64,000 bases of DNA, taken from positions 62,872,752 through 62,936,751 of the forward strand of contig OX457038.1 of NCBI GenBank assembly GCA_949752735.1, written 5' to 3'. Below the pieces are notes generated by a model. That model had not been told where the DNA came from. It saw only the letters and a program-made list of their open reading frames with translations, and did no database searches. The translations under genes were made by a program, and so were the position numbers. Of this stretch, positions 8,305 through 43,260 are shown one piece after another. The stretch comes from Lumbricus terrestris. Taxonomy: Eukaryota; Annelida; Clitellata; Crassiclitellata; Lumbricidae. Position 1 is the stretch's first letter; every line of letters starts with the position of its first letter.

Positions 8305-10330
8305 TTAAATGAATGGTAATCGTAATCTCGAAACTTCTACAGCGCCCACAAAAGCCAAGTCGCGGGAACCAGCTTATTCACAGGCGCTCAATCAAAACAA
8401 AATCGATAGGCAGCGGGTCAAGTCCGGAGAGTCAGGCAGGCAGATAGATGGACGGCTAAGGTGGGTGATGTTTAGAGTTGAAGTGGCGGGGGATGTAAGG
8501 AGAAGAAGAATCAGGATAGGATTTTTGAAAGAGCAATGTTTTCAGTTTTGAGTGAAAGACCTGTGGGGAGCTAGCGAGAGGTGGAGTTTTGGTGAGTTCG
8601 TATGATGGGTCGGAAGTTTGCCGAAGTGCTGGCGGAAGTTTGTTCCAGAGAGGTGGAACGGCAATGGCTATGGAGCGGTTTGCGAATTTCAGTGATGAAG
8701 TGATGGGAGGGCGAAGCAGTGTAATGGAGGATGAGGAGCGTGTTGAACGAGGTGGCTGGATGGTGAACAACTGACGAAGGTAGAACGGCTGGGATGATTG
8801 AAGTGTATTGTAAGTGAGTGAGAGGACTTTTTATTCGATGCGTTCAGGTATTTTGAGCCAGTGAAGTGATTTCAGGACAGGAGTGATGTGGTGACGTTTG
8901 GGGGTTTTCGTCACTGCACGGGCGAGGGCATTCTGGATAGCTTGGAGGCGGTTAATTTGGGTTATATCAATGTTTAGGAAGAGAGAGTTGCAGTAATCAA
9001 GTTTCGCATGAACTATGGATGTGGCTATTGTGGATGCAGTTTTAAAGTCAAGCATAGGTCGGATTCTGCGGAGATCTCGTATGTGCATGAAACAAGTGCG
9101 GGAAAGTTGGGTTATGTGGTCGGAGAAGCTAAGATGCTGGTCAAAGATTACACCTAGGTTTCGGACAGGAGAATTTGCGGAGAAAGTGTGGTTGGAAGAA
9201 GAGTCATTGTTGAAGGAAATAGAGGGATCAGGAATTTTCTTGAGTTGCTCTCTGAGGCCAATTAGTATAAATTCTGTCTTGGAGGGGTTAAGGCAGAGGA
9301 GATTTGAGGTCATCCAAGAGGTGATTTGGGTGACCACAGAGAGAAGATTATTTATGGAGTCAGAGAAGCTGCTTGGAGAGAAAGAGATGAATAATTGGGT
9401 GTCGTCAGCATATAGATGATGGTCGACTGTGGATGCTTTTATGAGTGAACTGAGTGGAGTGGTGTAGAGGATGAACAAGAGGGGCCCGAGGACAGAACCT
9501 TGCGGAACACCACAGGTGAGGGGGCGTGATTGAGATGATGTTTCAAGTGTTTTGACTGAGAAAGTGCGTGATGAGAGATAAGACTGAATCCAAAGGAGAG
9601 CAGTGTCGGTAAAGCCAAAGCAGGAAGACAGTCTTTGGAGTAGTATGTTATGGTCGATGGTGTCAAAGGCTGCAGAGACATCAAGGAGGCAAAGGCAGGA
9701 GACTTGTTGATGAGAGATGGCAGAGACAAGTTTATTGTAGAGTGAAGTAAGAAGTGTTTCGGTGGAGTGCTTTTTAGTAAAGCCGGACTGGTTTGGGTTA
9801 AGGAGTGAATTTGAAGTCAAGTAGTCATTGATGCGAGAGAGTACGACACGTTCTGTTAGTTTAGAAATGAATGAGAGGTTGGAAACAGGTCGATAATTAG
9901 AAAGGATTTCCTTATCAAGTGATGGTTTTTTTAGAAGTGGAGTTACCAAAGAATGTTTGAAGAGGAGGGGAAAGTTGCCAGTAGATAAGGAGAGGTTGAT
10001 TATTTGTGTGATGATGGGGACAATGATAGATGCGCACTCTTTCAGTAGGGCGGTAGGTATAGGGTCGAGTTCGCACTGCTTGTTTGGGAGAGATTGTAAT
10101 AAATTGGACACTTCAGACTCTGATGTTGGGCTAAAAGCAGATAGTGATGATTGAGGTGGGGAAGACGGAAGGTCGTGAGTGGAGGAGGGTGTATCTGCAG
10201 GTGAGTCGATGGTAGATTTTGAGAGGAGTGATTGCAGAGAGAGACGGATAGTAGTTACTTTGCCAGAGAAGAACGAACAAAATGAGTCAGATGGTGAAAG
10301 TAGGAACCTAATTTTGAATGTAGCCTACAA
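8305..10330 (-). mobile_element. 5'-truncated CR1/L2-group non-LTR retrotransposon
   Basis: The minus strand carries a LINE reverse-transcriptase reading frame from about 10316 to 8456, then a roughly 150-bp 3' tail ending near 8305. Upstream of about 10330 the frame meets a stop inside TAGGCTAC-type host sequence, so the 5' part (endonuclease and start of ORF2) is missing. That is usual for target-primed insertions. The tail has no microsatellite or poly(A). A second copy of the tail lies at 1296-1385. Target-site duplications were not resolved. Confidence 0.88.
8456..10316 (-). pseudogene. LINE reverse transcriptase, one premature stop
   Basis: This reverse transcriptase (RNA- and DNA-templated DNA synthesis for retrotransposition) lacks its endonuclease. 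Visible landmarks in order are FFSGKVTTIR in the upstream linker, LDVSAAFDTIDH (RT motif A with catalytic Asp), GVPQGSVLGPLLF (motif B), LYADDTQLFIS (YADD catalytic motif C), LNPSKTEF, NLGVIFD, LDYCNSLF and the C-terminal VPPLWNKLPPALR block typical of CR1/L2/Rex1-type elements. A single TAA at 8828-8830 interrupts the otherwise continuous frame, between 'IPERIE' and 'KVLSLTYN', where relatives normally have Tyr. The frame resumes at once and ends at TAG 8456-8458. The copy is therefore young but broken. Confidence 0.88.
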
Positions 10331-11710: not shown

Positions 11711-12091
11711 GCGTTCTGTTAAAGTCATCAAGCCCCCGCATTGTGCATTGACCACCTACAAGCATGAATATTTTTTTATAAGTTATTTATGTTATGACTA
11801 AACGAACTAAACGTGTTCACATCTTGAACTGTATTCGAGAAAAAAGAAATTTGATCATTCTTTGGGAAAGTTTATTATGTCCATTTGGGCTATTTATTGG
11901 GCTAGATCCTGAAAATTCAAATGTTTTGTGCTCTTTTTGGAAACTTCCGGTTAGTAATTTCCGGCATTTTCAAAGTTATGATGTCTGCTAGGGAAGTTTA
12001 TAATTCTTTAAATTGATTTTTTGAAGGTAATTTGGGTGGTTTCGGTAAGTTGGTAAGACATTATCATACTAGATCTAACCTATTACAGCCA

Positions 12092-15000
12092 ATGGATCTA
12101 GAACCAAGCGCTAATTCTTTGGATTGGACGCGCTGCATTTTCTGTCAGAAGGTGACACGGGAAAAGACGTGTTGCCCAGGTTTGTCATCCAGAAATGATT
12201 CTGGTTTAGGCTACAGAACTTTCTCTGAGAATGTAGGTGGATTTCAAGAGCTGGGATCATTTCCCGGTAACATTAATGTAAATTCATGGGATGAAGGCGA
12301 TGGTGTTGAAAATACTTGCATCAGAAACGATGCTTGCTGGCATCGCACATGCAGGCAACGACTGCACTCGACAACACTTGGGAGGATGCGAAAGCGACCG
12401 CATGCCCAAATTCCAGAGGTCAATGAACAAGAACTGCCCAATAACCTTTCGGCTGAATTTGAAACTCCCGAGCGTGTACCGCGCTTGACACGTTCAACGT
12501 CAGGTTTAGTAGAAACCGCATTTAGTTCGGTTTGCTTTTTTTGCGAGGTAGAAGGAAAAGACAATCGTCGCACAGTTATGACTGAACCGGTTACTGACAG
12601 AGTACGTCGTTGTGCTCAAATGATACAGGACCCTCATTTACTGGCTAAACTTGCGCAAGGAGACTTAATTGCAATTGAAGCTCAGTACCATCCAGCATGT
12701 CTACTTGGTCTTTATGATAAAGCTTCAAAGGCAGAGAAATCAATTCCACAAGTAGACGCTGAAGCTTCTCATTCTCAAATCAATGCAGAGTCACTTGCTT
12801 TAGCTGATGTCATAGCATATGTGGAAGACATACGAATAAATGAGAATACCCCTGCAGTGTTTACATTAAGTAAACTTATAGAGTTGTATTCTGAGCAGCT
12901 TAAGCTTCACGGTGTTTCTATTTTTAATAGAATTCACTCAACGCGATTTAAGGACCGCTTGCTCCAAAATTGCCCTGATCTGACCGCTGTAGACCATGGT
13001 AAAGAGGTTTTATTAACCTTTAATGATAGTCTTGGCATTGCCTTGCACAAATTGAAAGAAAACTCTGATAGTGACGCTGTGTTGCTAATGCACACTGCAA
13101 AGCTTATTAGAAATGAGCTGTTTAAAGCAAAACAATCTAGTTTCAATGGTGTCTTTGATACAACCAGTCAGCAAAACTCCGTACCCTCAATGTTAGTTTC
13201 CCTCATTGGTATGCTGCTTGAAGGGCCCGGGAATTTTGAGGTCATTGATAATCAGGCAGCTTTGTCCATCTCACAGTTGATAGTTTTCAATGCTGTTAAA
13301 AGGCCTCGCAGAACGATGGTTTCAGATACCCATCCAAAATCTTTTGTTCGGCATGCTCTTAATCAAGAAACCCCTCTTGCAATTTATCTAGGCATGATGC
13401 TGCATGCAGCAACACGTAAAAAGAATCTTGTGGAGAAATGCAATAAATTAGGCCTGTCGATATCATATGACAGAGTCAACCAAATATCCACAAAACTGGG
13501 AAATAGTGTATGTGCACAGTACAATTCAGAGCAACTTGTATTCCCTCCTGTTCTGAGGGGTGGTTTATTTACTGTTGCTGCTGTTGATAACATCGACCAC
13601 AATCCCAGTTCTACAACAGCCAAGTCTTCATTCCATGGAACTGCCATTTCCCTCATGCAGTTTCCGAGTGTTGAAAATCCTGGTGTTGACAGGCATATAA
13701 CTCACTCGCTTGATGAAGCTTCGACCGTTTCATCGGAAATCGTGCTTCCACTTGTTTATTCTGAAGTTCCACCATGCATATTTCCTAAACTTGACCCAAA
13801 CATTCCAACACTTCAGTGTCAGTTATCAGACCCAGTCAATAATACAAAAGCTGAATATGACTGGCTGAAGAAAGTTATGAATTGTGTTGAAAATGAATTG
13901 GATCCAATAAATATAACATGGGCTGCCCACCATGCTGAGGTCAGCATTCAGGAATCACAACCGATGCCAATCACTGCGATGTTGCCAATTTTCCGTCACA
14001 GTGCCAACACCGTTGCAATGATTCGACATTCGCTAACAGTTATTCGGAATGCTGTTCATAAGGTGAATCCAGAACAAGTGCCTGTTGTAACTTTTGACCA
14101 GCCACTTTATGCGTTAGCAAAGCAAATACAGTGGCACTGGCCCGAGGTATATGGGGAAAAGCATTTCGTAATCATGATGGGTGGTTTGCATATTGAAATG
14201 GCTGCTCTCAAGATGTTAGGTAACTGGCTGGATGGTTCAGGTTGGGTTGAATGTTTAGTGAATGCCGGGCTAGCGACATCCGGCGTTGCTGATGCATTCA
14301 TTGGTGCATCTCATGTTAAAAGAACTCGTTATGCACACACAGTCACAGCTGCTGCGCTATACATTTGCCAGCAGCGCGCATACTCAAAGTACTGTGTTGA
14401 TAGTCCAACACCAATTAGAATGTCATATGTCCAATGGTGTTCGGCGAAAAGTAAAAGTTCAGTTCAGTTCTTGTACTGGAACACTGTTCTGGAGTTGGAG
14501 TTGATGGTTCTGACCTTTGTTCGGGCAATAAGAGAGGGTACTTTTCAATTATATGTCGAGTCATTAAGAAATTTGGCACCATGGTTTTTTTGTCTCGATC
14601 ACACGCATTATGCTCGATGGATGTCAGTGCATTTGCGAGACATGTTGAACCTGGAAATGACTCATCCTAATATTGCATCAGAATTTCAGAATTCTAAATT
14701 TACAATTTCCAAATCCAACAAACATTTCTCCAACATTTCAATCGACCATGCGCATGAGCAACTAAATGCGTTGATCAAGGGTGATGGTGGTGCAGTTGGG
14801 CTTACAGAAAGTGATGCTGCTCTTAGCAGATGGACAATTGCAGGTCCTGAAATTCTCAGATTTTTGGAAGAATTCGAAGGGATTTTCACTTGGGTTAGTA
14901 ATAACCGTCAACATCATGAGCAGAAACCATATTGTCAGAAACGATTTAAGCAGGATGTTAAGAATGTTCTTGGGGTGTTTGAGCAAGAGGGCAATCCATT

Positions 15001-15970
15001 TAATGAAACCACAGCAAATGATGATCTAGCCTATTGTTTCTTGATTGTCACACAATTGCAGATAATGCTGTTTGTTCCAGCGTTAGAGCAGCACATGAGT
15101 TAGGTAGCAAACAATTGGAAACATGTTTTCATGAACGACTTCACGGGAAGGTTTCTATCCATGACCCGATGCATAAAAATAAGCTGCCATTGTTCACATT
15201 CAAGTCGGCTTCCAAAAATAAGAGCGCAAGTCGCTTAAAAGTAGCAGAGCTAAAAATGGATTGCCAATTGTTTTCACAGTTGTACATTGCTTGCCAATCT
15301 CGTGACAGTGATCTTAACGAATTTTTTCGACATGAAAATCAAGCTTGTCCCCCATCTTTGTCACAGCGAGGATCACTGAGATTTGGTGCCAAATCAGATT
15401 TGCTGACTTGCCTGAGTACATTATCTAACCCAATCAAAGATATTTCTGAACTCGATGTGGAATGTTGTGTTTTGGATGGAGCTGTCATTGTGCAGATGCT
15501 TAATCCAGGTGGTAGCCGAAATTTTGAGGAATATATTAGGACAATATTTCTTCCATACATTCATTCGGTTCTTTCAAAAGTTCAGAGATTGGATATTGTT
15601 TTTGATAGATATATTCCAAATAGTCTGAAATCCAGTGCAAGAGAGAAAGTCTTTGGAGTCACTTCCACCAACATCTGATTCGTTCTTGCAGCATGTCAAG
15701 CGAACAATCTATCAGGCAGTGCACTGCTGGGGTCATTGCATGGAAAAACGACCTATTTTCCCAGATCCAGTTGAGTGGGGTTGGACAAAAGAAGGTGAAA
15801 GCTGGGTGCCACTATGGATGACTCTACCAGAGGTGTCACTAAGTTGCAGTGAACTTATCCACTGTGGCTGCAAGAAGGGTTGCTTTGGAAGATGCAGGTG
15901 TGTAAAATCACGTTTGGTCTGCACAGCTCTGTGTCATTGTGGTGGTGTAGACAAGTGTGTCCGTAGGTAA
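12092..15970 (+). pseudogene. Large transposase-like protein of an unnamed metazoan family, decayed
   Basis: The start is ATG 12092, just after a TTACAG acceptor-like site. Frame 1 runs to TAG 15101-15103. It opens with a Cys-rich segment (WTRCIFCQK...CC) and a second CFFC segment. The core blocks are DNIDHNPSSTTA (near 13587), VVTFDQPLYALAKQIQW (14087), MMGGLHIEMAALKMLG (14174) and DHAHEQLNALIKGDGG (14744). The protein continues in frame 2 from about 15030 (FLDCHTIADNAV...) to about 15650, with the VQMLNPGGSRNFEEY block. It then returns to frame 1 (LPPTSDSFLQHVKRTIYQ) and ends with eight clustered cysteines at 15863-15940 (CGCKKGCFGRCRCVKS, then ...CTALCHC). From memory of the family, about 200 residues with an EEADTR/DTDVVVLA nuclease-like region should sit before LPPTS. 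They are absent, so there is an internal deletion as well as a frameshift. Acidic residues in DNIDHN, FDQPLYA and HIEM are candidate catalytic sites (inference). Confidence 0.75.
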
Positions 15971-21600: not shown

Positions 21601-24600
21601 TTATTGACTTGTGTTTATATGGAAGAGCATAAAAACTAATGAGGATCTTATGTCGTACAGTTGTTATAACCTTCCCCTGCTCAGACTTAATTTTTTCTGA
21701 CTCTTTTCTGAATGCTACCGAATTGCTTTGCGACAATGTAAATTTAATACAGTTCTAACTAGTATGTTAATATATTTGTTATCGTATTGTTTTTGTATGT
21801 TGTATTGTTTATTATGTTGCAGTATACTGTATTATGTTGTATTATATTATATTGATATTTCTTTTTAGCCAGTTGCTGCTCAGAAGAAGCCAAAGAAAGC
21901 TCTTGTTATTATGTAAGTCTTTTTTATATTACTTTAGTTTTGTTTAACTCTTCATTTTTGTTGAATTTGTCTTTTGCAAAACATAATGGTATAAGCCAAG
22001 GGCTCTGATATGCAAATAAATATAAGTTGTGAACTTGAGTGACTATTTGAGTTTTTGAAGGTTCTATATAAATATTTTATGTGCGATCTTATGGACGATG
22101 AATGTGCATGCATATTTCTTTTTAGCCAGTTTTACTTAGCCCTGTATTATGTATGTACGTATGCATTATACATACTTACGTACATACACTAGAGTGTAAA
22201 GAGTTTTCATTTTACGCATTTCTTATAACACAGGTTCTGATATAATTCAGTGGTCCAATAATTCAGTAGTGCATATATATATATATATAAAATTATATAT
22301 ATGATTATATATATAAATTATATATATATGTATATATATTCTATCTAAGCTTTGTTCAGGGCTCCCTATAAAATGATGGAGGTGCATGGCAGCCTAGTTC
22401 TTGCATGTTATGTTGGATTAGAGCACCTTTGTCTCCAAAATATCAGTTACTTGTTTTTTGTCGGTTGTAGGAAAGAGTTTGATCCGGAACGTCACAGCAT
22501 GAATGCTTACGTTGTGTTTGCAACTGAAGAAGAAGCTCAACAGTCTCTGCAGTTGTATGTATTTGGTCATTTGATTTATTTATTTATTTATTTCCAAATA
22601 TTGGGCAGTTGTTTATTGCAATCAAAGTGTAAACTTTAAATAAATCTGCTTCAGTTTCATACAGAAGACCCACTTCTAGTTCCCAACATATATGAGTTTG
22701 ACAAAAAAGAAATATTTCTGCAAGGAAATATTTCTGGTTATGGTGCAAGTTGTGATGAACACATTACGATACAAGTGCTACACGACTAAAATTTCTAACT
22801 GAAGTTGGGATAGAAATGTTGTGTCTGAAAAATCCGACTTCATTTGCCGTCTGGCATCATTTTGATCTGACTTGGAAAAATTGGTATGAAGAATTTTTTC
22901 CTGTGTCAGCTCGATTTGTTGGGGTAAATTTAATTATCTTGGAACCCTCCAGTTAACTTGGGGGTGGGTGTCTATAGTATTGGTTTCCCATGTATCCATC
23001 CTTCACATAACTTGTTTCTCACCTTTTTGTGGTGAATTGGTTTTTGGTTTTGTTTTAGAAATGGCACAGAACTTGAAGGTCTACACATACGCGTGGATGT
23101 GGCAAGCATTTCAAAAAAGGTTTCATGTCCACAGATAATTATTTGTTTCCAATTTTGTATTGTCTTCGTTTGATCTGCGTTTAGTTTAGGCCTACGAGCA
23201 GCTTTCATTAAGGAATTGGATCATACTCAGAGATGCCTCTGATTAATAATGTTTGCTGCACCTGTGCGTACACTGTTGAGTGGCGCTATATAAATTTATA
23301 GATACAATGTCAATGTAAGACATGGACTTCAAATGGACTGCTTCAGGCTTCTGGTCTATGGGAACTTGTGGATCTCAGATGACTTAGTCCAAAGTAAACT
23401 GTAATTTTCAGAATGCTGTTATGCTTACAATTGATGTCACTTACATTAATGTCAGTGTAGAAATGTTCCAGATTGGATGGTTTTCATGTGTTCAATCAAT
23501 TAATATGTCAACGAATAAATCATGAATACGCAGTGAACAGACTGAAGAGTGAATGCATTATTCACCGATTATTCATTGGTGAATTAATATGCGCATGAAT
23601 GATGAATGAAACGATGCATTAAGGAATTGAATGATCGCTCTTCATATCAATCCACTGATGTAGTCATATTAAAATTGACATTTTGATCATCCGTCTTGTC
23701 TTTGTCTTTTTAGCACGATCACAAATCCACGATCTTTGTCGGCAACATGCCTTTCAGTGAGTTTGTCAACAGACACATTTAATGTATTGACCTGCTAAAT
23801 ATTCTGTGTAGTTTCATTTAACTCATATTTACAGAATGCCGTGAGTATTATGTGGTGTCATTTCGGAAATGAGAGACATGTAGATATCTGGCAAAAATGC
23901 GTACAAATAAACTTATCTACCCCCATCCCCTTAGAGAAGATAATTAGCTAAAGTCTCCTACAAAACCATTTATTTTACCGTAGCTACTACTTATCTTTGT
24001 TAAACATCATTTTTGCTAGCTAACATTTGATAGCTGTTATGGTTTACAATTGGAATTGAACAAAATTAAATTATGATGTAATCAAATGATATCGGACGAC
24101 TCTAGGATAATACAGAGTTATAAATAGGCAAATTATGTGGATGTCATAATTAGACTGATTTATTTTGTGTACGTACATTTTTTATGGATAGTAGATGCGA
24201 CATAATTTTCTTATTCTGAAATATGAAACAATTAGGTGAATTGGCAACTTGGTCAGTGGGGCAATTCAAACATTGGGAGTTGCCAGTTTCTGAATATCTT
24301 TACGTGTCTGCACACTGTGCAGATGGATTGCAGTACTTAGTGTCCAGGCATGTCAGGAGAAGGAGAGTCAATGTGTTGCTCTGCAGGTGGTTTCGCTATT
24401 GAAACCTGAAGTAGGCTGGACCTAACACAACGCGTTCCTCATGCATAGAAAGGTTAAATGGAGCAACATTTACTAACATTTGCCAACTGTTATGGCTTTC
24501 AGTTGGATCTGAACAAAATTAATCTATATTTGTTGTATTGTTGTACAGATGTAGAAGAGGAAGCTGTAAGAAAGCATTTTGACGTCTGTGGTGAGATCGA

Positions 24601-26123
24601 AAACGTTAGAATCATTCGAAACAAGCTCGATGGATCAGGGAAGGGATTCGGATATGTGAAATTTGCTGTGAGTTAACAAATAATGTCAGATTCGTGGTCA
24701 TACTGTTTGTGTGTCAGTCTGTTTGTCTGCCTCTGCAGCATGTTTGTCTGCACGTATTTCTGTGTCTGCCTGTTTACATTCGACTGCAAAATAACAGGCT
24801 TTTGCAAAAAAATTGGGAATATTATATATGACATGTAACGTGTTAGTTCTCTACTATGCTGTGATGTAGGGTTATGTTCAGTGCTTTGGAGCTGCAAGGT
24901 TGTGGGTTCGAATCCATCTAAAGCTGCTGTGTAGGGACCCTGAGTAAGTCCTTCACTCGCAATTCCTCATGTACTCCAGCACGAAGCTTCGATTCAGTGT
25001 CCGTGTTGTAGTCAGAGGTGCCTCTGATTCATTTAAATGCCTTGTCCAATTTCATGGTGCATTATTTCATGCATGTGCAATAATAAGTGCTACCGTTCTA
25101 GTAATAAAATAAACTATGTGAAGGGAATAATTGTTATAAATGAATGGATGAACTGTTTTCAGGACCAATCGTCCGTCAGTCTGGCTCTGAAGATGGAAGG
25201 ACAGGACCTTCTGGGTCGACCACTTCGAGTGAAGAAGGCGGCCAAAAAGCAAAAGAAAAAGAAGTTGTCTCAGGCGGAAGATGTAAAAATGAAGCAGAAT
25301 GGAAAGCCGTCGAAGGCAAGAAACCAGGCAACGAGGCCAAAGATGGGGACTACAAAGCCGGCGATAAAAGCCGGACCAGTTGAGAAGTTCAGAGGAAATG
25401 ATGAATCCAATAAAGCAGGAACGAAACCAAAGAAACCGCTGCGAAAGGTATCATGCTTTGTACTTTGTGGTTGATATGGTTATGATGATTATAATAGAGT
25501 GTAATTGTAGTTGGTATGTTTCTGAGCATTGCACTAAGCTATATTTTAGTCATGGAGACCAGGTGATAGAGTACAATCATTATACACACCACCTTTCATT
25601 GCATACGATAGAGAGACTGGCACAAAAATTAGATAAGGGAGTGCTTGCAGTGTAAAAAATTTTGAACTAAATTGGTTAGTTTTAATTTTCAGAAGAAGGA
25701 ACTTTTGGATGACAATTGTCCATAATTTAAAAAAATAATTCTTATAGGTAAATTGGTCACCTTTGTTTAATAACAGAAATAAATGTCATTAATGAAGTGG
25801 TTTTAATATTAAACTTAAATAAACAACAAAAAGAATACGTTGATCATATTATTTTCTTACTGGTTATTGTTTCTGCAAATTATTCTACTTATTTCCAAGT
25901 ACAATTTTCTAATCAATTGGTTTTGACTATTTGCTTAAATTACATTTGATGCTGGTTGTGTTTGCAGTTTGGTGATTTGAAGAATCGTTTGAAATCCATG
26001 AACAGTTCATCAGTGATTGGTCGAAAGGAAAAGCATGGCCTCAAAAAGGCAATGCGTGAAATGGTTCTGGAACGAAAGAAGTTGTCTTTGGGAAAACTTC
26101 TAACTGGAGGAAAGAAAAACTAA
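18688..26123 (+). CDS. RBM34: RNA-binding protein 34 homologue, complete 11-exon gene
   Basis: This encodes a nucleolar protein with two RRMs, related to yeast Nop12 and implicated in ribosome biogenesis. Exons: 18688-18840, 19515-19630, 20056-20314, 21174-21233, 21869-21912, 22471-22554, 23059-23119, 23714-23756, 24549-24667, 25163-25447, 25968-26123 (TAA). All phases agree and give 459 residues (human RBM34 is about 430). RRM1 spans about residues 160-259, with RNP2 TVFVGNV and RNP1-like AYVVFA. RRM2 spans about 264-335, with RNP2 TIFVGNM and RNP1 GKGFGYVKFA. The N-terminus starts MSQKASYTPGDVASFLAKQ. A Lys-rich tail (KKAAKKQKKKKL) follows RRM2 and fits nucleolar targeting. The C-terminus KEKHGLKKAMREMVLERKK is conserved-looking. 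Intron 2 uses a GC donor (CGAG|GCAAGT). All other introns are GT-AG. Confidence 0.93.
18885..19097 (+). mobile_element. SINE with RTE/BovB-like 3' tail, in RBM34 intron 1
   Basis: The unit contains CGACCTTGGACAAGTTGCTC, then GAAGGCAATGGCAAACCACC, CTGCCAAGAAAACCAT and GGTCGCTAGGGCTCT, and ends in ACTAACTAACTAACTA. The GGCAATGGCAAACCAC..TGCCAAGAAAACC..ATGG..GTCGC..ACTAACTAA order resembles BovB/RTE 3' ends, so its mobilising partner is probably an RTE LINE (inference). Sense relative to the host gene. Its left end is not well defined. Confidence 0.65.
21000..21070 (+). repeat. Short ~19-bp repeats in RBM34 intron 3
   Basis: The words TCATTGTCTGCCAC / TCATTGTCTGTCACACC recur about three times just upstream of exon 4. 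Confidence 0.5.
21490..21571 (+). repeat. 27-bp tandem repeat, ~3 copies, RBM34 intron 4
   Basis: The unit GTACAATGTGG(T/G)(T/G)CAATTGTTG is repeated three times, with small differences between copies. Confidence 0.7.
23218..23305 (+). mobile_element. SINE/LINE 3'-end fragment, RBM34 intron 7
   Basis: ACTCAGAGATGCCTCTGATT resembles AGTCAGAGGTGCCTCTGATT in the SINE at 24850-25045. It is followed by GAGTGGCGCTATATAAATTTATA, the type of 3' end common to CR1/L2 LINEs. This is probably the tail of the same SINE family. Confidence 0.5.
24850..25045 (+). mobile_element. tRNA-derived SINE in RBM34 intron 9
   Basis: GGGTTCGAATCC at 24904-24915 is a perfect RNA polymerase III B box. It is preceded by a degenerate A-box region (TAGGGTTATGTTCAGTGC) and followed by TAGGGACCCTGAGTAAGTCCTTC, a 'gggcaagtccctt'-like SINE body. 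It shares its 3' block with 23218-23305. It is decayed but has the same orientation as the host gene. Confidence 0.65.
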
Positions 26124-33800: not shown

Positions 33801-34000
33801 NNNNNNNNNNNNNNNNNNNNNNNNNNNNNNNNNNNNNNNNNNNNNNNNNNNNNNNNNNNNNNNNNNNNNNNNNNNNNNNNNNNNNNNNNNNNNNNNNNNN
33901 NNNNNNNNNNNNNNNNNNNNNNNNNNNNNNNNNNNNNNNNNNNNNNNNNNNNNNNNNNNNNNNNNNNNNNNNNNNNNNNNNNNNNNNNNNNNNNNNNNNN
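33801..34000. other. Assembly gap (200 N)
   Basis: Exactly 200 unknown bases, likely a scaffold gap of arbitrary length. Proteins drawn across it are meaningless. Confidence 0.98.
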
Positions 34001-34079
34001 GAAGCGTTATGCTAACTAATATAATAATTAAATATGCTAATTTTCTGGATCTTCGTGCTATAGTGCAAGAAATGCGGCA

Positions 34080-34250
34080 TCCAACCAGCATGCGAGAACC
34101 ACAATAGCCCAGGAATCTGAATCCAATCAGCGTGCGAGAATTCCTAAGAGCGACCAATGAGGGAGCGAGAATTCTATAGTGTGCCCAACCAGCGTGCGAG
34201 GTCTCTTTTAGCCCGAAATCCATGCCCAATCAGAATGTGAGAATCTTACT
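34080..34250 (+). repeat. Degenerate repeats (CCAATCAGCGTGCGAGAATTC), 5 copies
   Basis: Units near 34080, 34123, 34153, 34185 and 34225, spaced 30-43 bp. They lie between the gap and the PolB gene 3' end. Confidence 0.7.
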
Positions 34251-34304
34251 AGTAGGAAATTTCTAAGTATGAATGAACAAACACAATATTTTTCATAGCA
34301 ATTC

Positions 34305-34310
34305 TTTATT
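34305..34310 (-). promoter_or_regulatory. Candidate poly(A) signal of the PolB gene
   Basis: AATAAA on the minus strand, about 320 bp beyond the PolB stop codon at 34628-34630, after the 78-bp repeats. Confidence 0.5.
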
Positions 34311-34389
34311 ACACACGATTATGCGATCTTTATGTTAATGCGATTGCGCAATATCTTGCGCGATGGTGCAACTATTTCATTTATTTACA

Positions 34390-34600
34390 TTGTTCGTCGC
34401 ATAGTTCATTTCAAATATCTATAGAGCTCAATACTTTTCGCAGAGTCCATTATTTACAACCATCGACGACTTTTTCGCATTGTCCAAATCAAATATCTAC
34501 AGAGTTCAATACTTTTCGCAGAGGCCATTATTTACAAGCATCGACGACTTTTTCGCATTGTCCAATTCAAATATCTACAGAGTTCGACGACTTTTCGCAA
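34390..34600. repeat. 78-bp tandem repeat, ~2.7 copies, in the PolB 3' UTR
   Basis: TCAAATATCT recurs at 34411, 34489 and 34567. CATCGACGAC recurs at 34461 and 34539. The repeat lies immediately downstream of the PolB stop codon. Confidence 0.8.
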
Positions 34601-34627
34601 TAACTACAAGTATTTACTTCAATTTCT

Positions 34628-37600
34628 CTATACATTATTTACACTTGGAATATTTACATGCCCATACGACAGCGATTCTGAGGAATTTAAAAGATACCGC
34701 TTGTCGTCATACGGAGAGAGAGCTGCTTTTCGCAACTCAACAGTGTGCAAATCATGTTTTCGACTTTGTATAACACAGAATTTGGACTTAGTAGGCTTTT
34801 CTTCAAGAATACAAGCTCTGTATTCAGCATGTCTGATGCATTTCTTGACAAAGGCCCTTTTTATCCCCTTCGCCGTCTTCTTTTCCTTCTCCCCAGCCAA
34901 CAACAAACTATACATCTTCGACCGCAGACCGCAAAATTCAATTACAGCATCCCCATTGCACTCGTCCTTGAACTTCCCAATAACCTTAGCATTGGTGCGA
35001 CTATGCAAAAAGTGCCCACAGGGGTAGTCAGAGGTATCGTACTCGTCTAAGTTGCGCTGCATGTCAAGATATACGTCGTTTGTAAAGATATGGTAGCAAA
35101 GACTGTCGGTATCTGTGAACAGGAGTTTGCAGGCAGATCCATAAATGGGTATTATATGCTCGTAATGGAATTCATACATTTTTAATTTAGATATATCCAG
35201 GATACACATGCCGGCGTAAAGAGGCTTGTTGAGTAAAACATTAGAATTTGTTAATTTTATCACGGTCAAATCTTCGTTTATGATATTGTAGGATTCAAAA
35301 TTTGGTCGGGCCACGAAACGTTTGGCTCGTTTCGCGTTGGTGACAAGCTTCACGGCAAGATGTTTCCTGTTATTTTGCATCGTCTTACCGTAAATTGAAT
35401 TGTTCATTAATTTGAAGAGGTCCTTTTCAAAGGAAGATTTTGCAATCTGCCGTTTGGAAGTGTTGAAGTCGATATATGGCTTCAGCCATCGACTTTGGCG
35501 AAACTCGAGGATTTTATGAATTTTGGCCAATTTCATACCCATTTTCAGATAGAATTGAAGATTTCGATAATGCACGACGTACCGGGTCTTTGCCATGAGA
35601 TTGGGCACCAACTTTTCGACCCCGGTACCGATTTTAGCCGAAATTTTCTGTGAAACGGACTTTGCGTACGGGGATATCATGTCCGGTCGTATGTGCAGCG
35701 TCTCTGGTGCGAGGGGATAGTCATTGTGGTCGTCGTGGAGATGAGAAGGATAGTCCAAGTCCACGGCCAAAATATATCCTAAATCGTCGTCTGTCGATTT
35801 AGAGTCCAAGTCAAAATCGTCAATTTCGTATTCGTCCAAAAATCTAAATTTACCCGTTGGGAGCGGCTCGGACATGGCGTACCCATAGAGGTTGTTACAA
35901 TCCAAATACATGATGTAGCTATTTGGACTGCTTGGGTCGTATCCTTGAGCGAGATACGGGTTATTCGCCTTTGCATATCGATTGGATATCATGGAAACGC
36001 CACCTCTCATGCCCCGCTCCACAAACAGGTAAATGTCTGGGTCGGTAATCAGGTCCAAATTTACATTTGTCATGCGCAGACACGCGTCAAAGCTAAGTCC
36101 GGGGCTGCTGTAATAGTGAAGCGGGTCCAATTTATAAAAGTCCAAGGACATGGCACGAAATGATTCGAAAACATCAGCCAGTAAAATGACGTCTGTCTTC
36201 AAATACAGATCGTGGTAGTCCTGCATAGTTGTCATATTAAAAGTCTGCCAAATTTTCTGGGCATAGTCGTAGTCGTCCTGCGAGATGTCTTCGTCCGTCA
36301 GTTTACTGAAGAAACAGCCCTTGGGTGGCAGAGTCCTTTCGGTCATTCTGCAGGCTGTCGTCATGTATTCGTAGGGAAATACCCCCTTACGCAAAAGCAA
36401 TTTGTAGTCGGTCGGAAAAATTCGCCGCAAATGTTTGAATTTGGAGTCGTCCTCTTTCGATAAATTTTTTACCAACACGTCCAAACCGCAGTTTAGAAAT
36501 TGGAGGGAATCCAAAAAGCGTATATTATTGACTTCGAACGAGAGATATTTTTCCATGTTGGTTGCAATGACATTTATTTCTTGCTCTGCAAACTCCTTGT
36601 TCATGTTTTTGAGAATAAGATGAGAGTCGTAACCTTTAAGGTTGTGAAAGATGACAGGAAGAAGATAGTTTGCAGTTTTCCCTTTCTTAGACTTTGTAGG
36701 TTTGCGAAACTTCATTTTGAGATTGCAAGGTGAGCAAAGAGCAGAAACAAAGTTACCAGTCATGTGACAGTGGTGTCGAACTTTGTTGGAGCCAGAAAAA
36801 GCGGAAGAGCAAGAAGGACATGCAGCACAACTTTCAAACTGTAACCGCTGCTGCTGGGTAAGTGGAATCATCGGTTTGTTGGTTGCCAAAATTTTATTTA
36901 TACGAGTTTGTTCCGATTTTATATGCGAAAAGAAATGCGCCATCACGTCTGGGCCCGAATACGTGTATGGGGCAGCATCGTCCAATTGTGGAAACGAAGA
37001 AACTGTGAGACAACAGAACCCGCTAGGAGTATGCGTATCGAGAAATTTTGTTGAGTTGGTCGCAGAAGTAGTATCGTTTGGCGAGAGATAGCTCTCGAAA
37101 TCTGAATATATCGCGTAGGGCACAGGCATTTCATGCTGCGTGTTTGAAAATGAGAGGTTAGAATTTTCATCGGACGGGTATCGCACGGACTGCAAGCCGT
37201 GCTTGCCGCATTCGTCCATGTGTGCGTGTTTCCCAGCAGCAGTGGTAAAACAGTAAAGACAGTAAGGACAAGGAAAAGATCGGCCATTATGTGAATTTCG
37301 TGTGCTTAGAAGAGCAGAAAGATTGCGAATTGTGATATAATGGCGTTTAGCACCATCGTCAAGAAGTAGAAGGTTAACAATGTGTTTTCTACCCCTATGA
37401 GCACTTGCATATAGAGGAGTAAACTTTTTATCATCCGGATTGAAGTACATAATATTAATTGCATAGTCAGGATTGAGAGATTCAAAGAGTGGAATTTGAT
37501 CAATCGTCATTGGAAATTTCAACCCTTTAATTACAAGTTCGTCCACATATCGCCTGTAGATACTGACCCTTTGTGCATTATCTTTTTGAAAATGACTTAC

Positions 37601-37955
37601 AGCTAATGTTGCATAGAGAAAGCAGAAATCATCATCATTTTGAATATTTAGGGTAGCATGCTTATTCAATATATATTGTGGGGTGGAAATGTAAGTAGAC
37701 GCGCCGATCGGTTCGTATACCGCATTGCACAACTTAAATTCCGCCACTCCATTCACTAACCACCCCGAACTCTGGCTTGTGAAGGTGTCGACAAGTTCGT
37801 CGATGCGATGTATTGCGTCTTGCAATTGGTCGGCGATCTGTGACGGATGCAATAGTGTTGCCGGCACAGACTTGAAATACCCGACCGTCTGGGTGTCTCC
37901 ATCTGGCGTGGGTCGCTTGAAGTCCACGTCGACCGCTACGTACCATTTCACCGGC
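34628..37955 (-). CDS. PolB catalytic exon
   Basis: One 3.3-kb exon holds the entire exonuclease and polymerase domains. The acceptor TTTCTTTAG at 37956-37964 precedes G|CCGGTGAAATGG, which matches the phase-2 donor GG|GTGAGT at 38249. The frame stays open 26 codons further upstream to 38032, so an unspliced read-through start there is conceivable. A C2H2-like finger (CPYCLYCF..HAHMDEC) lies at about residues 530-550 of the full model. All catalytic acidic residues expected for proofreading and polymerisation are present. Confidence 0.93.
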
Positions 37956-39924
37956 CTAAAGAAAACATTGTGCTTAATACGAAATGGATATGTTCGAATG
38001 CTGTAGTGAAAAATTTCGATATGTTCAAGCAAAAATTTTCTAAGTCCAAATCACAGAAGCGAAAAATTTTCTAAGTCCAGATTTTTAGACGGAAAATTTC
38101 TAAGTACAACATTTTAGAGCGAAAAATTTTCTAAGTCCAAGAAATAGAGTTGGTAAAATGTTCTATGTTGCACGCTTTAGAGTGAAAAATTTCCTAAGTC
38201 CAGCATTTTAGAGCGAAAAATTTTCTAAGTCCAAGAAATGCAAACTCACCCTTCGTCTCCGAATGTATCCTCCAGAGCGGCGGTCATGCGCGATGCTTCT
38301 GCCAGCAACAGACCGTGCACGTCGGTTGTTTCCGGCACAGGAAACGTCATATCGATGAATGTGTTTTGTGTCGACGTGTGTACGCCCGGATTGGCCGCTT
38401 TCTTCACGCATGTAACACAGATCTCTTGGCCGGATCGGAAGAATCGCACAGGCCGGCGATTCTTGCATTTCGTACACTCTTGACGTAGCCGGCAGGTTTC
38501 ACAGAGCCCGTTCGTCAGATTGGTCGCCTTGTACGCGCGACAAGACTTGCATCGACCTAAAGACATCCAGTATATTTTAAACTACGAGATTTTACATATA
38601 CAAAATAATAATGTATCAGAATACAAGCATAAAATTCTGTGTCTTTGTACGTGTGTGTGTGTGTCATGTGCAAGAATGTTAAAGTCCGTAAACTCGCTTA
38701 CTCGAAGTGCCGGGCTCTGCTGGCGATGTCGGCCTCGCGTCCCTGTCGCTGGAGCTGGCCGCGCCGCTGGAGCCGGAGCTGCTCGCCGCCGCAGCCGCAC
38801 CGCGGCTGCTGGGATTGGTTGTCGCTGCCACCGCCGCCACCGTCGCCGGCACCGCCGGCGACCCTTCTCGCAAATTTCCCATCAGATCTACATCATACAG
38901 AAATAACAAACACAGCTTTCTTTACAAATTGTTGTATTTGAAAAGTACAAGTTCGTTAAAATTGATCAATGCAGCACAAAATTCCGTATTTGAAAAGTAC
39001 AATTTCGTTGAAATTGTTCGTTGTATTGTATAAGTTTAAAAGATTGAAGGAAAGCGTACTTACGGATTCGTTTTGGTGCGCATCCAGTGTCCGGCTCTGC
39101 CTTTCGCTTAGTTTCTACAACACAAATTAAACGACATGTTACAAAGTATTTTCTAGAATTATATCACAGAACTTTAAAAATAATATATTTTATTCAACAT
39201 ACGAAAATTTTTGATTGTTTAAAAATTATTTTGTTCGAATTAAAAAATAAACTTACCCATTTCTCGAATCGTCTTCTTCAGTTGAGCCTCGATCTTGAGC
39301 AGTTCATCAATTTTGGCACGCAGGTTGCTCGCTAAAGAAAATTTAATTTTTTTTTTTAGTGTTGAGGATTTGCATTAGGTCTAAGTTAGCTAGGTACATA
39401 AAGTTTAAGAAAATGTCCTACCAGTTTCCATGACGGGTTCTTCTTTGTCAAATTCGCTTAAATCGGAAAAAGTTTTATATGGGTTCGCATGCACATATAT
39501 CTACTACTTAATTCTTGTAGACAGCGTCTTACACTACTTTCGCAAAAATGCCAAATATCAAACCAAATGTAATAAGTCAAGTTCTGCTGAATTCTGAAGC
39601 TGCTGTGTGACGGCCACCGTCTGGCGATGGACTTTATATTGCCGGGGACTACTTTTTCATATATTCCTACGCGAAATAGTTCCAAGCGCGCATGCGCGCG
39701 GAAGGATATGGTTAAGGCGGTGATGCGGTCGCGTGTGAGTGTGCGTGTATGTTTGAGCTGGTGTGTGTGTGTGTGTGCGTGTGAGGGAACTACTTTCTTC
39801 ATGTCCTCCTATGCGAATTAGTTCTAAGTCCAAGCGAAATAATACTAAGTGCGCATGCGCGCAGAATGTTATGTTGATGCTGTGATACATTTGAGTGGAT
39901 GTGTGTGTGAGTGTGTGTTTGAGC

Positions 39925-39959
<35 letters not shown>

Positions 39960-41136
39960 TGGGGGCGTGTGCGTATGTGTGCGTATGTGTGTGTGTGTGT
40001 ATGTGGCACACACAGGGGAAGAGTTCGTGGCGTCCATAGCTTACTTGAATCGTCGGAATGTGCTGATGATGCTGATGATGATCCTGCATGTTGCTCTACC
40101 ACTGATGCAGAGGGTTCTGTGCGCTGACCAGCGTTGTCAATCTCTGCAAGAGTTAATAGTATATACCATAAAGTGCGAATCGTTCGTCCATAATAATAAT
40201 ATTATTATTTTCTATTCATTTCAAAATACAATGAATTTTCCTTTCGTTCGTCTTTTTGGCCTCTGGAAAAAAGTTCCAAGGAGTAAATGATTCAGCTGGC
40301 ACATATGTAATGCACGCTAATACCGCTCAGATCTATAGGCCTATACAATGATAGGATACAAAATAAATGCCCATAGAAATTTATTATTATCTCAGACCTA
40401 TAGAATTACAGAACGATAGGCTGCAAAATAAATGTCCATAGAAATTAATTATTATGTCAGATCTATAGAATTACACATCGATAGGCTGCAAAATAAATGC
40501 GCATAGAAAATAATTATTATGTTCTAGCCACATGTGCAGCGAAGTTACTACAAAGTCCTGCGCATAGACAATTTATTTTAAAATAATTATACTCACGAGA
40601 TGTTGAATTCCTGTCGGCTGTAACGATTCGAGTGGGAAGGATTCTGATGTTCGTAGAAGATAACTGTAGAGCTGGAAATCGAGGCTGGTCAGGAGACGTC
40701 GCCGGATTTGCGCCGCGCTCTGATGCCGATGAGGATTCTGATTGCAAATCATCCTTATTCAGATCTATAAGATATGAACCGTTATAAAGTGCGAATCTTT
40801 AAAATATAATGATAAACTTGCTGCATGCATACTAAAATGAGCGCCCATGGATAGAAAATTCGGCGCTTTGCAGTATAATATATTGTGCATATTTTCTATG
40901 ATGAGAATTTTAGTATAGAAAAAGGATATGACTACTATTATTATATTCTATCGTCAAAATTTTGCAAGAAAGGCCATTACAGATCGGCATTATACTAGAA
41001 AAAATCCGCTGCAGTGTGCAAGTGCCAGTCCCAAGGCCGTAAAAATTGTCCGGACGTCGATAGAAATAGCTCTTACGATTATATAAGATTAGAAACTTGC
41101 ATTAAAATAATTTAACTCACTCGATGTTGAAGCCAT
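34628..41136 (-). CDS. Spliced Polinton/adintovirus-type DNA polymerase B gene
   Basis: My model has eight exons on the minus strand: 41136-41121 (ATG), 40764-40597, 40143-40045, 39331-39257, 39114-39064, 38887-38702, 38556-38250, 37955-34628 (TAG). The total is 4230 nt, exactly 1410 codons. Introns are phase 1 six times, then phase 2. The N-terminal 300 residues are Ser-rich, then a short coiled coil (LRAKIDELLKIEAQLKKTI), Ala/Ser-rich, then a CxxC zinc-ribbon block. The last exon is a protein-primed family B polymerase: exonuclease motifs DFE (about residue 586), HNLKGYDSH (about 738) and YLKTD..LLAD (about 885), an HHCHMTG..C..C endonuclease-VII-like finger (about 680-711), and polymerase motifs DCNNLYGYAM (about 985), KLMNNSIYGK (about 1149) and the catalytic TDTDS (about 1248). 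No inactivating mutation is seen. This enzyme replicates Polinton/Maverick and adintovirus-like genomes. None of their other genes (integrase, ATPase, capsid, protease) is visible here. It may be a domesticated or unusual element gene. Confidence 0.85.
38032..38235. repeat. TTTTCTAAGTCC repeat array in the last PolB intron
   Basis: Six copies of (GAAAAA)TTTTCTAAGTCCA, with slight variants, start near 38034, 38072, 38098, 38130, 38190 and 38222, some joined by CATTTTAGAGCG. On the coding strand each reads ...TGGACTTAGAAAATTTTTC and offers an acceptor-like TTAG. Related words occur at 34256 and about 39825. Confidence 0.85.
38250..38556 (-). CDS. Zinc-ribbon exon of the PolB gene
   Basis: The acceptor is GTCTTTAG and the donor GG|GTGAGT. 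It encodes CKSCRAYKATNLTNGLCETC, then RLRQECTKCKNRR and EICVTCVKK. These are four CxxC knuckles, like the treble-clef or zinc-ribbon modules that precede some invertebrate PolB proteins. They are followed by a Thr/Glu-rich linker. It forms residues about 199-300 of the model. Confidence 0.8.
38702..38887 (-). CDS. Ala/Ser-rich exon of the PolB gene
   Basis: The acceptor is GATGTAG and the donor TTCGA|GTAAGC; the exon is 186 bp and phase 1-1. Its very high GC (GCC/GGC/AGC codons) contrasts with AT-rich flanks. The product is disordered, ending SDRDARPTSPAEPGTS. Confidence 0.7.
39640..40010. repeat. (GT)n microsatellites and duplicated ~180-bp unit in a PolB intron
   Basis: ACTACTTTxTTCATxTxxTCCTAxGCGAAxTAGTTC followed by GCGCATGCGCGC occurs twice (about 39648-39702 and 39788-39866). 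Each is followed by a GTGTGT tract, so a unit with its microsatellite has been duplicated. Confidence 0.75.
40328..40523. repeat. 65-bp tandem repeat, 3 copies, in a PolB intron
   Basis: CAGA(T/C)CTATAG starts units at 40328, 40393 and 40458. Each contains GATAGGxTxCAAAATAAATG and CATAGAAA..TTATTAT. Confidence 0.88.
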
Positions 41137-41450
41137 GCCTGCTGTAAATGTTCGAGTTGGAAGGAGTCTGCTAGCTGTAGAACGTCGTGTGGCGATGTAG
41201 ACCGCCTGTCGAATGTAGATGTGTAGAAGATGCTGCGTGCCGGTCGAATCTCGAAATCTCCTGGTCTTCGAAACGTATGTGTTTAACTAGTGCGTTGGCC
41301 GGCCTTTTTATAAATGCCTGTAACCATTCTGATGATATCATCAACCATCCTGTTCAGACAAGATCGGGCGAAGTCAGACATGTCTGGGGGAGAGCTCTGT
41401 TGCTGTAGACGCGCAGTGAGCCCGCTATGCCAGCAGCCCTGCTGAGTAAT

Positions 41451-41725
41451 TGAGAATTCATGTTCAGACACGCTTGGGCGCGATCAGCAGCTCTTATGTG
41501 TACTTGGGAATTCATGTTCAGACACGTTTGGACTCGATCAGCATCACGCTGGACGGTTGCACTGAGGCTGCCATATAGCCACACCAGCTGCTCTTATGAG
41601 TAATTGGGGATTCATGTTCAGACAAGCTTGGGCGCGAATAGCATCACGCTGGACGGTTGCACTGAGGCTGCCATATAGCCACACCAGCTGCTCTTATGAG
41701 TAATTGGGGATTCATGTTCAGACAA
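41451..41725. repeat. 100-bp tandem repeat upstream of the PolB gene
   Basis: TTCATGTTCAGACA recurs at 41511, 41611 and 41711, exactly 100 bp apart, and in a shorter 60-bp unit before. GCATCACGCTGGACGGTTGC recurs at 41541 and 41641. It lies 315-590 bp upstream of the inferred PolB ATG. Confidence 0.88.
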
Positions 41726-41879
41726 GATTGGGCGAGAATTCTGTCGCTTATGGTGAGAGTGAGAGAGGGGTGGGAAGAGCTCTGTATGGGTGGGAGAGAA
41801 GGATGCTGTGCGTGGCGCATGATGAGTAATTCTATCATACTGTTCATAGTAGATCAGATGAGGCCAGACGAAGTCAGAT

Positions 41880-43260
<1,381 letters not shown>

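Follow-up and report, generated by a model that had tools for sequence, protein, structure and literature searches.

A ~9-kb Polinton-like mobile element of the earthworm Lumbricus terrestris in which a predicted eight-exon, protein-primed DNA polymerase B gene is the only gene detected

The stretch of DNA analyzed here (the window: 64,000 nucleotides (nt) of Lumbricus terrestris assembly GCA_949752735.1, contig OX457038.1, positions 62,872,752 to 62,936,751 of the forward strand) carries on its minus strand an intact eight-exon gene for a protein-primed family B DNA polymerase (PolB) of the adintovirus/Polinton type, and this gene sits in a mobile element of ~9 kb that is repeated in the genome. 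Polintons are regarded as viruses, or as transposons that synthesise themselves, in which polymerase and integrase occur together and introns are absent. The element is probably a Polinton-derived DNA transposon reduced to its terminal inverted repeats (TIRs) and one eight-exon PolB gene, and it would borrow its integrase. The evidence below bears out much of a first-pass annotation of the window, which had described a viral-type protein-primed polymerase with its catalytic motifs, encoded in 1410 codons by eight exons that seven GT-AG introns separate, and had seen no Polinton partner gene nearby; of the two origins it had suggested, host domestication and an unrecognised kind of PolB-carrying element, only the second comes near to what was found.

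The gene model and its flanking signals are as follows (coordinates are those of the window).

41431..41739, no strand: tandem repeats 5' of the promoter region (sequence scan)
41303..41313, minus strand: putative TATA-box-like TATAAAAAGG (by eye)
41121..41136, minus strand: exon 1 with the putative start codon, 16 nt (phase check and comparison of copies)
40597..40764, minus strand: exon 2, 168 nt, its end belonging to a 69-nt segment that duplicates the exon 1 region
40045..40143, minus strand: exon 3, 99 nt (phase check and comparison of copies)
39257..39331, minus strand: exon 4, 75 nt, helical and coiled-coil-like by eye
39064..39114, minus strand: exon 5, 51 nt, basic and nuclear-signal-like by eye
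38702..38887, minus strand: exon 6, 186 nt, low complexity
38250..38556, minus strand: exon 7, 307 nt, Cys-rich, zinc-finger-like N-terminal region of PolB
37956..38249, minus strand: intron 7, phase 2, at a site also inferred for 10 other homologues
34628..37955, minus strand: exon 8, 3328 nt, coding for an OTU-like region, an exonuclease that contains an HNH-like motif, and the polymerase
34305..34310, minus strand: putative AATAAA polyadenylation-like signal with a T/G-rich stretch after it (by eye)

The exons sum to 16+168+99+75+51+186+307+3328 = 4230 nt, or 1410 codons including the stop; phases are consistent across all eight, and no in-phase internal stop was found when the exons were checked one by one. 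All seven donors read GT[AG]AG[TC], and from 41136 to 37956 the strand holds no other such site. The GC content of the exons lies 0.213 above that of the introns, a difference that none of 20000 random placements equalled (exons 1–6 alone: 3 of 20000; exons 1–5 alone: 90 of 20000).

The strongest test of the introns was comparison with six other genomic copies, in which 37 of the 42 exon-copy pairs for exons 1–7 could be placed (the five unplaced pairs are exon 2 in copies C6, C2 and C10 and exon 3 in C2 and C10). Twenty-five of the placed exons were equal in length, the other 12 differed always by a multiple of 3, and none of the 37 held a stop; the exon 6 span, at 141–402 nt, was in frame in every copy. 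GT donors were found in 37/37 and AG acceptors in 31/31 cases, a tally biased toward agreement, since the alignment around each splice site was itself used to find the exon ends; the frame result is less biased. The least tested point is the start codon in exon 1: this exon aligned poorly at its start, over 10 nt rather than 16, in three of the six copies, which make up three of the 12 differing lengths. In addition, residues 50–152 of a continuous relative, P0123, align with all of exon 7 (30% identity, E 3e-14), and the alignment ends at the same residue, before PVKWY, while P0123 itself runs uninterrupted across the 7/8 junction. Chance splice signals are thus ruled out by the copies, the GC contrast and the P0123 alignment, and on this comparative evidence the introns are real. 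Exons 1–6 showed no clear relative beyond this genome, exon 7 used alone as query returned none, and a query of residues 20–320 returned four proteins. Around exon 1, positions 41102–41170 (exon 1 region and donor) and 40578–40646 (exon 2 end and donor) are duplicates with 80% identity, and in copy C2 a 141–153-nt unit is repeated several times over the exon 1 region.

Most of the polymerase is encoded by exon 8 (1109 codons including the stop). When its protein was compared with 5.8 billion proteins, 7723 homologues were recognized among 7986 scored candidates, and the analyses that follow use 120 listed homologues of these 7723. The named viral homologue among the 120 is the PolB of the Parasteatoda house spider adintovirus (P0068; 45% identity over 100% of the region). 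An 18-sequence alignment has invariant columns at D317, E319, D475, Y616, D620, D717, Y722, K880, N884, G888, D980 and D982, which we take to be the usual exonuclease and polymerase motifs. The window protein (P0001) deviates at two of 160 near-invariant positions, both times conservatively, and ranks 41st of 120. Its AlphaFold2 model (mean predicted local distance difference test score 80.3) best matches phi29 DNA polymerase in the PDB (E 9e-17, TM-score 0.70 by target length), and the best viral structure matches are PolBs of densovirus-labelled (bidnavirus-type), adintovirus and MELD-virus origin, so that by homology and predicted phi29-like fold the polymerase is of the protein-primed type. 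The OTU-like region is homologous to adintovirus PolB and contains a conserved C143 and H237, presumably with a catalytic role. Despite the clear homology and fold, P0001 gave no match to Pfam DNA_pol_B_2 at E 0.1; NCBIfam gave no match at E 1, the PHROGs matches were two endonuclease VII families plus a third family of unknown function, and a sequence search of the PDB gave weak matches only (ankyrin, zinc-finger and one HNH nuclease, Hpy99I).

That the gene belongs to a repeated element was seen by searching the whole assembly (1,056,305,194 bases in 331 contigs), where 1619 candidate places were found at first look. The best 40 of these, window included, were scored, and all were 90–100% identical over nearly the whole frame. 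Between 0 and 3 stops were flagged in the matched stretch of each place, with none in 9 of the 40, and some flags may represent the natural end of the frame. At seven loci examined individually, six frames were free of stops (1119–1140 aa) and one (L018) was broken at 608 aa; two loci, L014 and L015, could not be told apart by their values and may represent a single copy that was assembled two times. The window's part of the element is delimited as follows.

34001..42582, minus strand: window's part of the mobile element, by similarity to six copies; the 3' end falls within the assembly gap
42093..42582, minus strand: 5' TIR; 42093–42491 matches the terminal repeats of the copies, and the outer end is set by the terminus motif
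34001..34042, minus strand: inner stump of the 3' TIR, a 29–42-nt match to the 3' repeat of four of five copies
33801..34000, no strand: assembly gap of 200 N (sequence)

Similarity with the six copies extends from the gap (34001) to ~42.3–42.55 kb, beyond which only short scattered matches were seen. The 5' terminus in the window is AGTAGTGAGAGTAGG at 42582, flanked by GTCACT. The TIR pair was not found inside the window because the 3' repeat, except for ~40 nt, falls in the gap. Elsewhere, five copies have inverted repeats of 479–588 alignment columns with 91–97% identity, and three further copies have repeats of 420–572 columns with 94–98%. In C6, whose 3' piece contains a 200-N gap, the inverted repeat is just 62 nt, and the 5' piece of C11 was too short to include the end. 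The elements terminate in AGTAGTG...CACTACT, and of 11 copies looked at (the window, C6 and C11 among them, each short of one end), all eight with both ends covered are flanked by perfect 6-bp target-site duplications (TSDs; GTCGTA, AATGGC, ATGGTC, AACGGA, CACATG (C4, by eye), GACCAG, TACGCA and CACGCC). Five complete elements measure 9184, 9593, 8757, ~9530 and 9451 bp.

The PolB gene is under purifying selection. Exon 8 of the window compared with the seven loci gave nonsynonymous rates (dN) of 0.021–0.048, synonymous rates (dS) of 0.15–0.37 and dN/dS of 0.08–0.14 (the L018 comparison covers 597 codons only). Purifying selection, along with the small exons having changed in frame, suggests that the copies that spread had a working, spliced polymerase. 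Strong constraint, introns and promoter-like and polyadenylation-like signals are also what would be expected of a Polinton gene taken over by the host, as had been suggested for this locus. However, the locus is neither single-copy nor outside a mobile element: copies are repeated on many contigs, and TIRs and TSDs were present in the eight copies with both ends. Domestication is therefore rejected, and we give it hardly any weight. The same repetition, with all 40 scored places of the 1619 candidates at 90–100%, speaks for a mobile element.

The content of the element was evaluated with two sets of queries and with Pfam. When the open reading frames (ORFs) of two Polinton-like contigs, L001 and L002 (the only two contigs that the IMG/VR scans gave), were compared by tblastn with the five complete elements, PolB was the sole match. 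Similarly, 35 frames of at least 100 aa from a resident Polinton, described below, matched the five elements and the window at PolB alone, and the same search, as a control, recovered the resident integrase and ATPase-like frame in three other copies at ~74–84% identity. No RVE integrase was found in the elements by tblastn or among 219 window ORFs by Pfam. The tblastn searches found no packaging ATPase, protease or capsid genes in the elements, with limited sensitivity for highly diverged genes, and no hexon or chromodomain integrase. Pfam, applied to 112 and 107 window ORFs, found one clear domain, an RRM (17 of 153 ORFs had earlier been left out for low complexity, 24 of 136 in the inner part for length and 19 of 126 in the outer part by choice). 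As controls, Pfam on L001 detected the ATPase and integrase and missed the capsid and PolB, and the L001/L002 queries recovered only integrase and PolB from the resident Polinton, missing its ATPase-like frame; a very diverged partner gene could therefore escape the L001/L002 and Pfam searches.

The resident Polinton is a 17,434-bp element at G000:C19:1812157-1829590 (L050, L051 and L053), with a TIR of 389 columns at 95.6%, AGTAGT termini and a TSD, CCACTT, read by eye. It encodes an integrase (27% identity with the L001 integrase, E 3e-19), an ATPase-like frame in which a P-loop was read by eye, a PolB in an uninterrupted 1298-aa frame that is 38.6% identical to the window PolB, and more than 10 further frames that are 130 aa or longer. 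It also has what we take to be a chromodomain-like integrase end and a phospholipase-like frame, and searching identified no capsid gene in it. The L001 integrase matched 129 scored places of 4227 candidates in the genome, mostly open frames of ~316–331 aa, among which there may be retroelement integrases. With the resident Polinton, the nucleus that houses the 9-kb elements also contains an integrase of a suitable type.

The presence of a full-length Polinton sharing AGTAGT termini and a 6-bp TSD raised the possibility that the 9-kb elements are non-autonomous deletion derivatives of a full-length, intron-bearing Polinton family still present elsewhere in the genome, with PolB as a leftover. 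We regard this as unlikely. In the single full-length copy that was looked at, PolB lacks introns and is just 38.6% identical, and one would not expect a leftover to hold dN/dS at 0.08–0.14 and to change by in-frame indels. In addition, no larger relative with these TIRs turned up, though no search of the genome dedicated to the TIRs was made.

A second possibility is insertion without any integrase, by way of an HNH/endonuclease-VII-like zinc motif embedded in PolB between the first two exonuclease motifs (36700–36860; P0001 residues ~401–447). Its residues C411, C414, H427 and C442 are present in 120/120 homologues and H429 and N443 in 119/120, and it falls on a beta-beta-alpha segment of the model, with a Pfam match below that family's cut-off. 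The motif may be a second nuclease of the whole PolB family. As a means of insertion it seems to us very improbable: the PolB of L001 weakly matches the same motif family, and that contig also has an integrase. AG termini, furthermore, are a product of Polinton integrase. The 6-bp TSD is likewise given as such a product in a passage of PMC8097293.

The reading that we favor as probable is a Polinton-derived transposon that retains its TIRs and PolB and would borrow its integrase. The gene would be transcribed by host RNA polymerase II and its exons joined by the spliceosome; the polymerase would return to the nucleus and replicate the element by protein-primed synthesis that starts at the inverted ends; and a Polinton-type integrase from resident full-length Polintons would insert the copy, as the matching termini and TSD length suggest. 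Introns would persist because the element moves as DNA and not via RNA.

Several observations weigh against this interpretation. No integrase is linked to the element, and insertion in trans is read from the matching termini and TSD length only. Splicing is read from genomic sequence, and tblastn and Pfam could have overlooked a partner gene that has diverged beyond their reach. One of the seven loci is broken, and the scored places are the best 40 of the 1619 candidates, a sample that may not reflect the share of degraded copies. Finally, the TIRs of the 9-kb element show no similarity to the resident Polinton (L050–L052) beyond the termini (E 1e-3), and the integrase that is recruited may thus come from a different family of Polintons.

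Like Polintons/Mavericks, the element has AG termini, a 6-bp TSD, long TIRs (~0.42–0.59 kb, 91–98%) and a protein-primed PolB, but integrase, ATPase, protease and capsid genes were not detected in it. Its size of ~9 kb also differs from the 15–20 kb given in a passage of PMC13419823, and its PolB has seven introns common to the copies, in contrast to the intact vertebrate Mavericks without introns mentioned in PMC8097293. It is thus Polinton-like at its ends and in its polymerase, and not in integrase, capsid, size or lack of introns. Its PolB is of the same family as that of Adintoviridae and may share its OTU-like N-terminal domain, but here the gene is predicted to be spliced, and neither hexon nor chromodomain integrase was found. 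Capsid-less Polintons have been described, with nine elements lacking major capsid protein, protease and ATPase together, as part of a virus-transposon continuum (PMC4028283); the present element differs in also having no detected integrase and in the introns of its polymerase gene. The predicted PolB structure is highly similar to that of bidnaviruses, whereas Pfam showed no NS1 or VP domain in the window ORFs that were submitted to it. PMC12721341 deals with a PolB fusion in polinton-like viruses of dinoflagellates. No intron-bearing or polymerase-only Polinton is described among the open-access titles and abstract openings listed, which is weak evidence of novelty.

A lone replicase, apparently spliced in the fashion of a host gene and strongly selected within a repeated element, would represent the separation of replication from integration, and offers a natural case for asking whether protein-primed replication alone is what selection preserves. 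It is also a warning, since virus gene callers that are blind to introns split such genes; in a passage of PMC10120064 a prokaryotic/virus gene caller is said to be suitable because endogenous viruses are without introns.

To place intron 7 among relatives, a midpoint-rooted tree of the 120 homologues (801 columns) was used, in which the window's clade has 58 members. Ten other proteins of this clade have a predicted frame that starts 3–23 residues before the 7/8 junction with an unrelated lead-in. At the junction itself, R or S (an AGN codon, as from an acceptor) is found in 10/10 of these versus 20/62 continuous proteins (p 6e-5), and F, C, Y or D precedes it in 9/10 versus 7/62 (p 1e-6); these p values are a guide only, the ten having been picked by eye and related sequences not being independent. 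The other 47 of 119 proteins were left out, as they start too late or too near the junction. In the other clade 0/62 proteins are of the junction-start kind and 48/62 are continuous, versus 11/57 continuous in the window's clade. The simplest reading is that diverged relatives have an intron at the same site and in the same phase, a reading made at the protein level because no intron-bearing relative's DNA was readable outside this genome. Contigs L005, L006, L010 and L011 from metagenome-assembled genomes (MAGs), and apparently L007, have no intron at the 7/8 site, nor do the PolBs of L001 and L002. P0123 (of the N-terminal relatives that include this region, the best), the 11 continuous members of the clade and at least four of the MAG contaminant contigs thus speak against a universal intron. 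L005–L012 are eight contigs with a eukaryotic-virus-type PolB in bacterial MAGs, and are probably contamination.

We suggest tentatively, and lean somewhat against, a broader proposal: polymerase-only, intron-bearing elements might constitute a class of their own, ancient and widely distributed, of solo replicase transposons derived by a split from Polintons/adintoviruses, with a multi-exon nuclear polymerase gene under selection for copying its own element, and that parasitise the integrase of resident Polintons. If so, the solo-replicase lineage would be recognizable by the intron 7 site, which is inferred to be common to 10 diverged homologues drawn from several collections.

Elsewhere in the window, a 1028-aa open frame and a 217-aa frame that weakly matches DUF6589 (12017–15678) probably belong to another mobile element or a host gene. 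A reverse transcriptase frame, of non-LTR (long terminal repeat) type by eye, lies at 8831–10324 (PF00078, E 2e-34), and the RRM exon at 24458–24673, RBM34-like by eye, is probably part of a host gene ~10 kb from the element.

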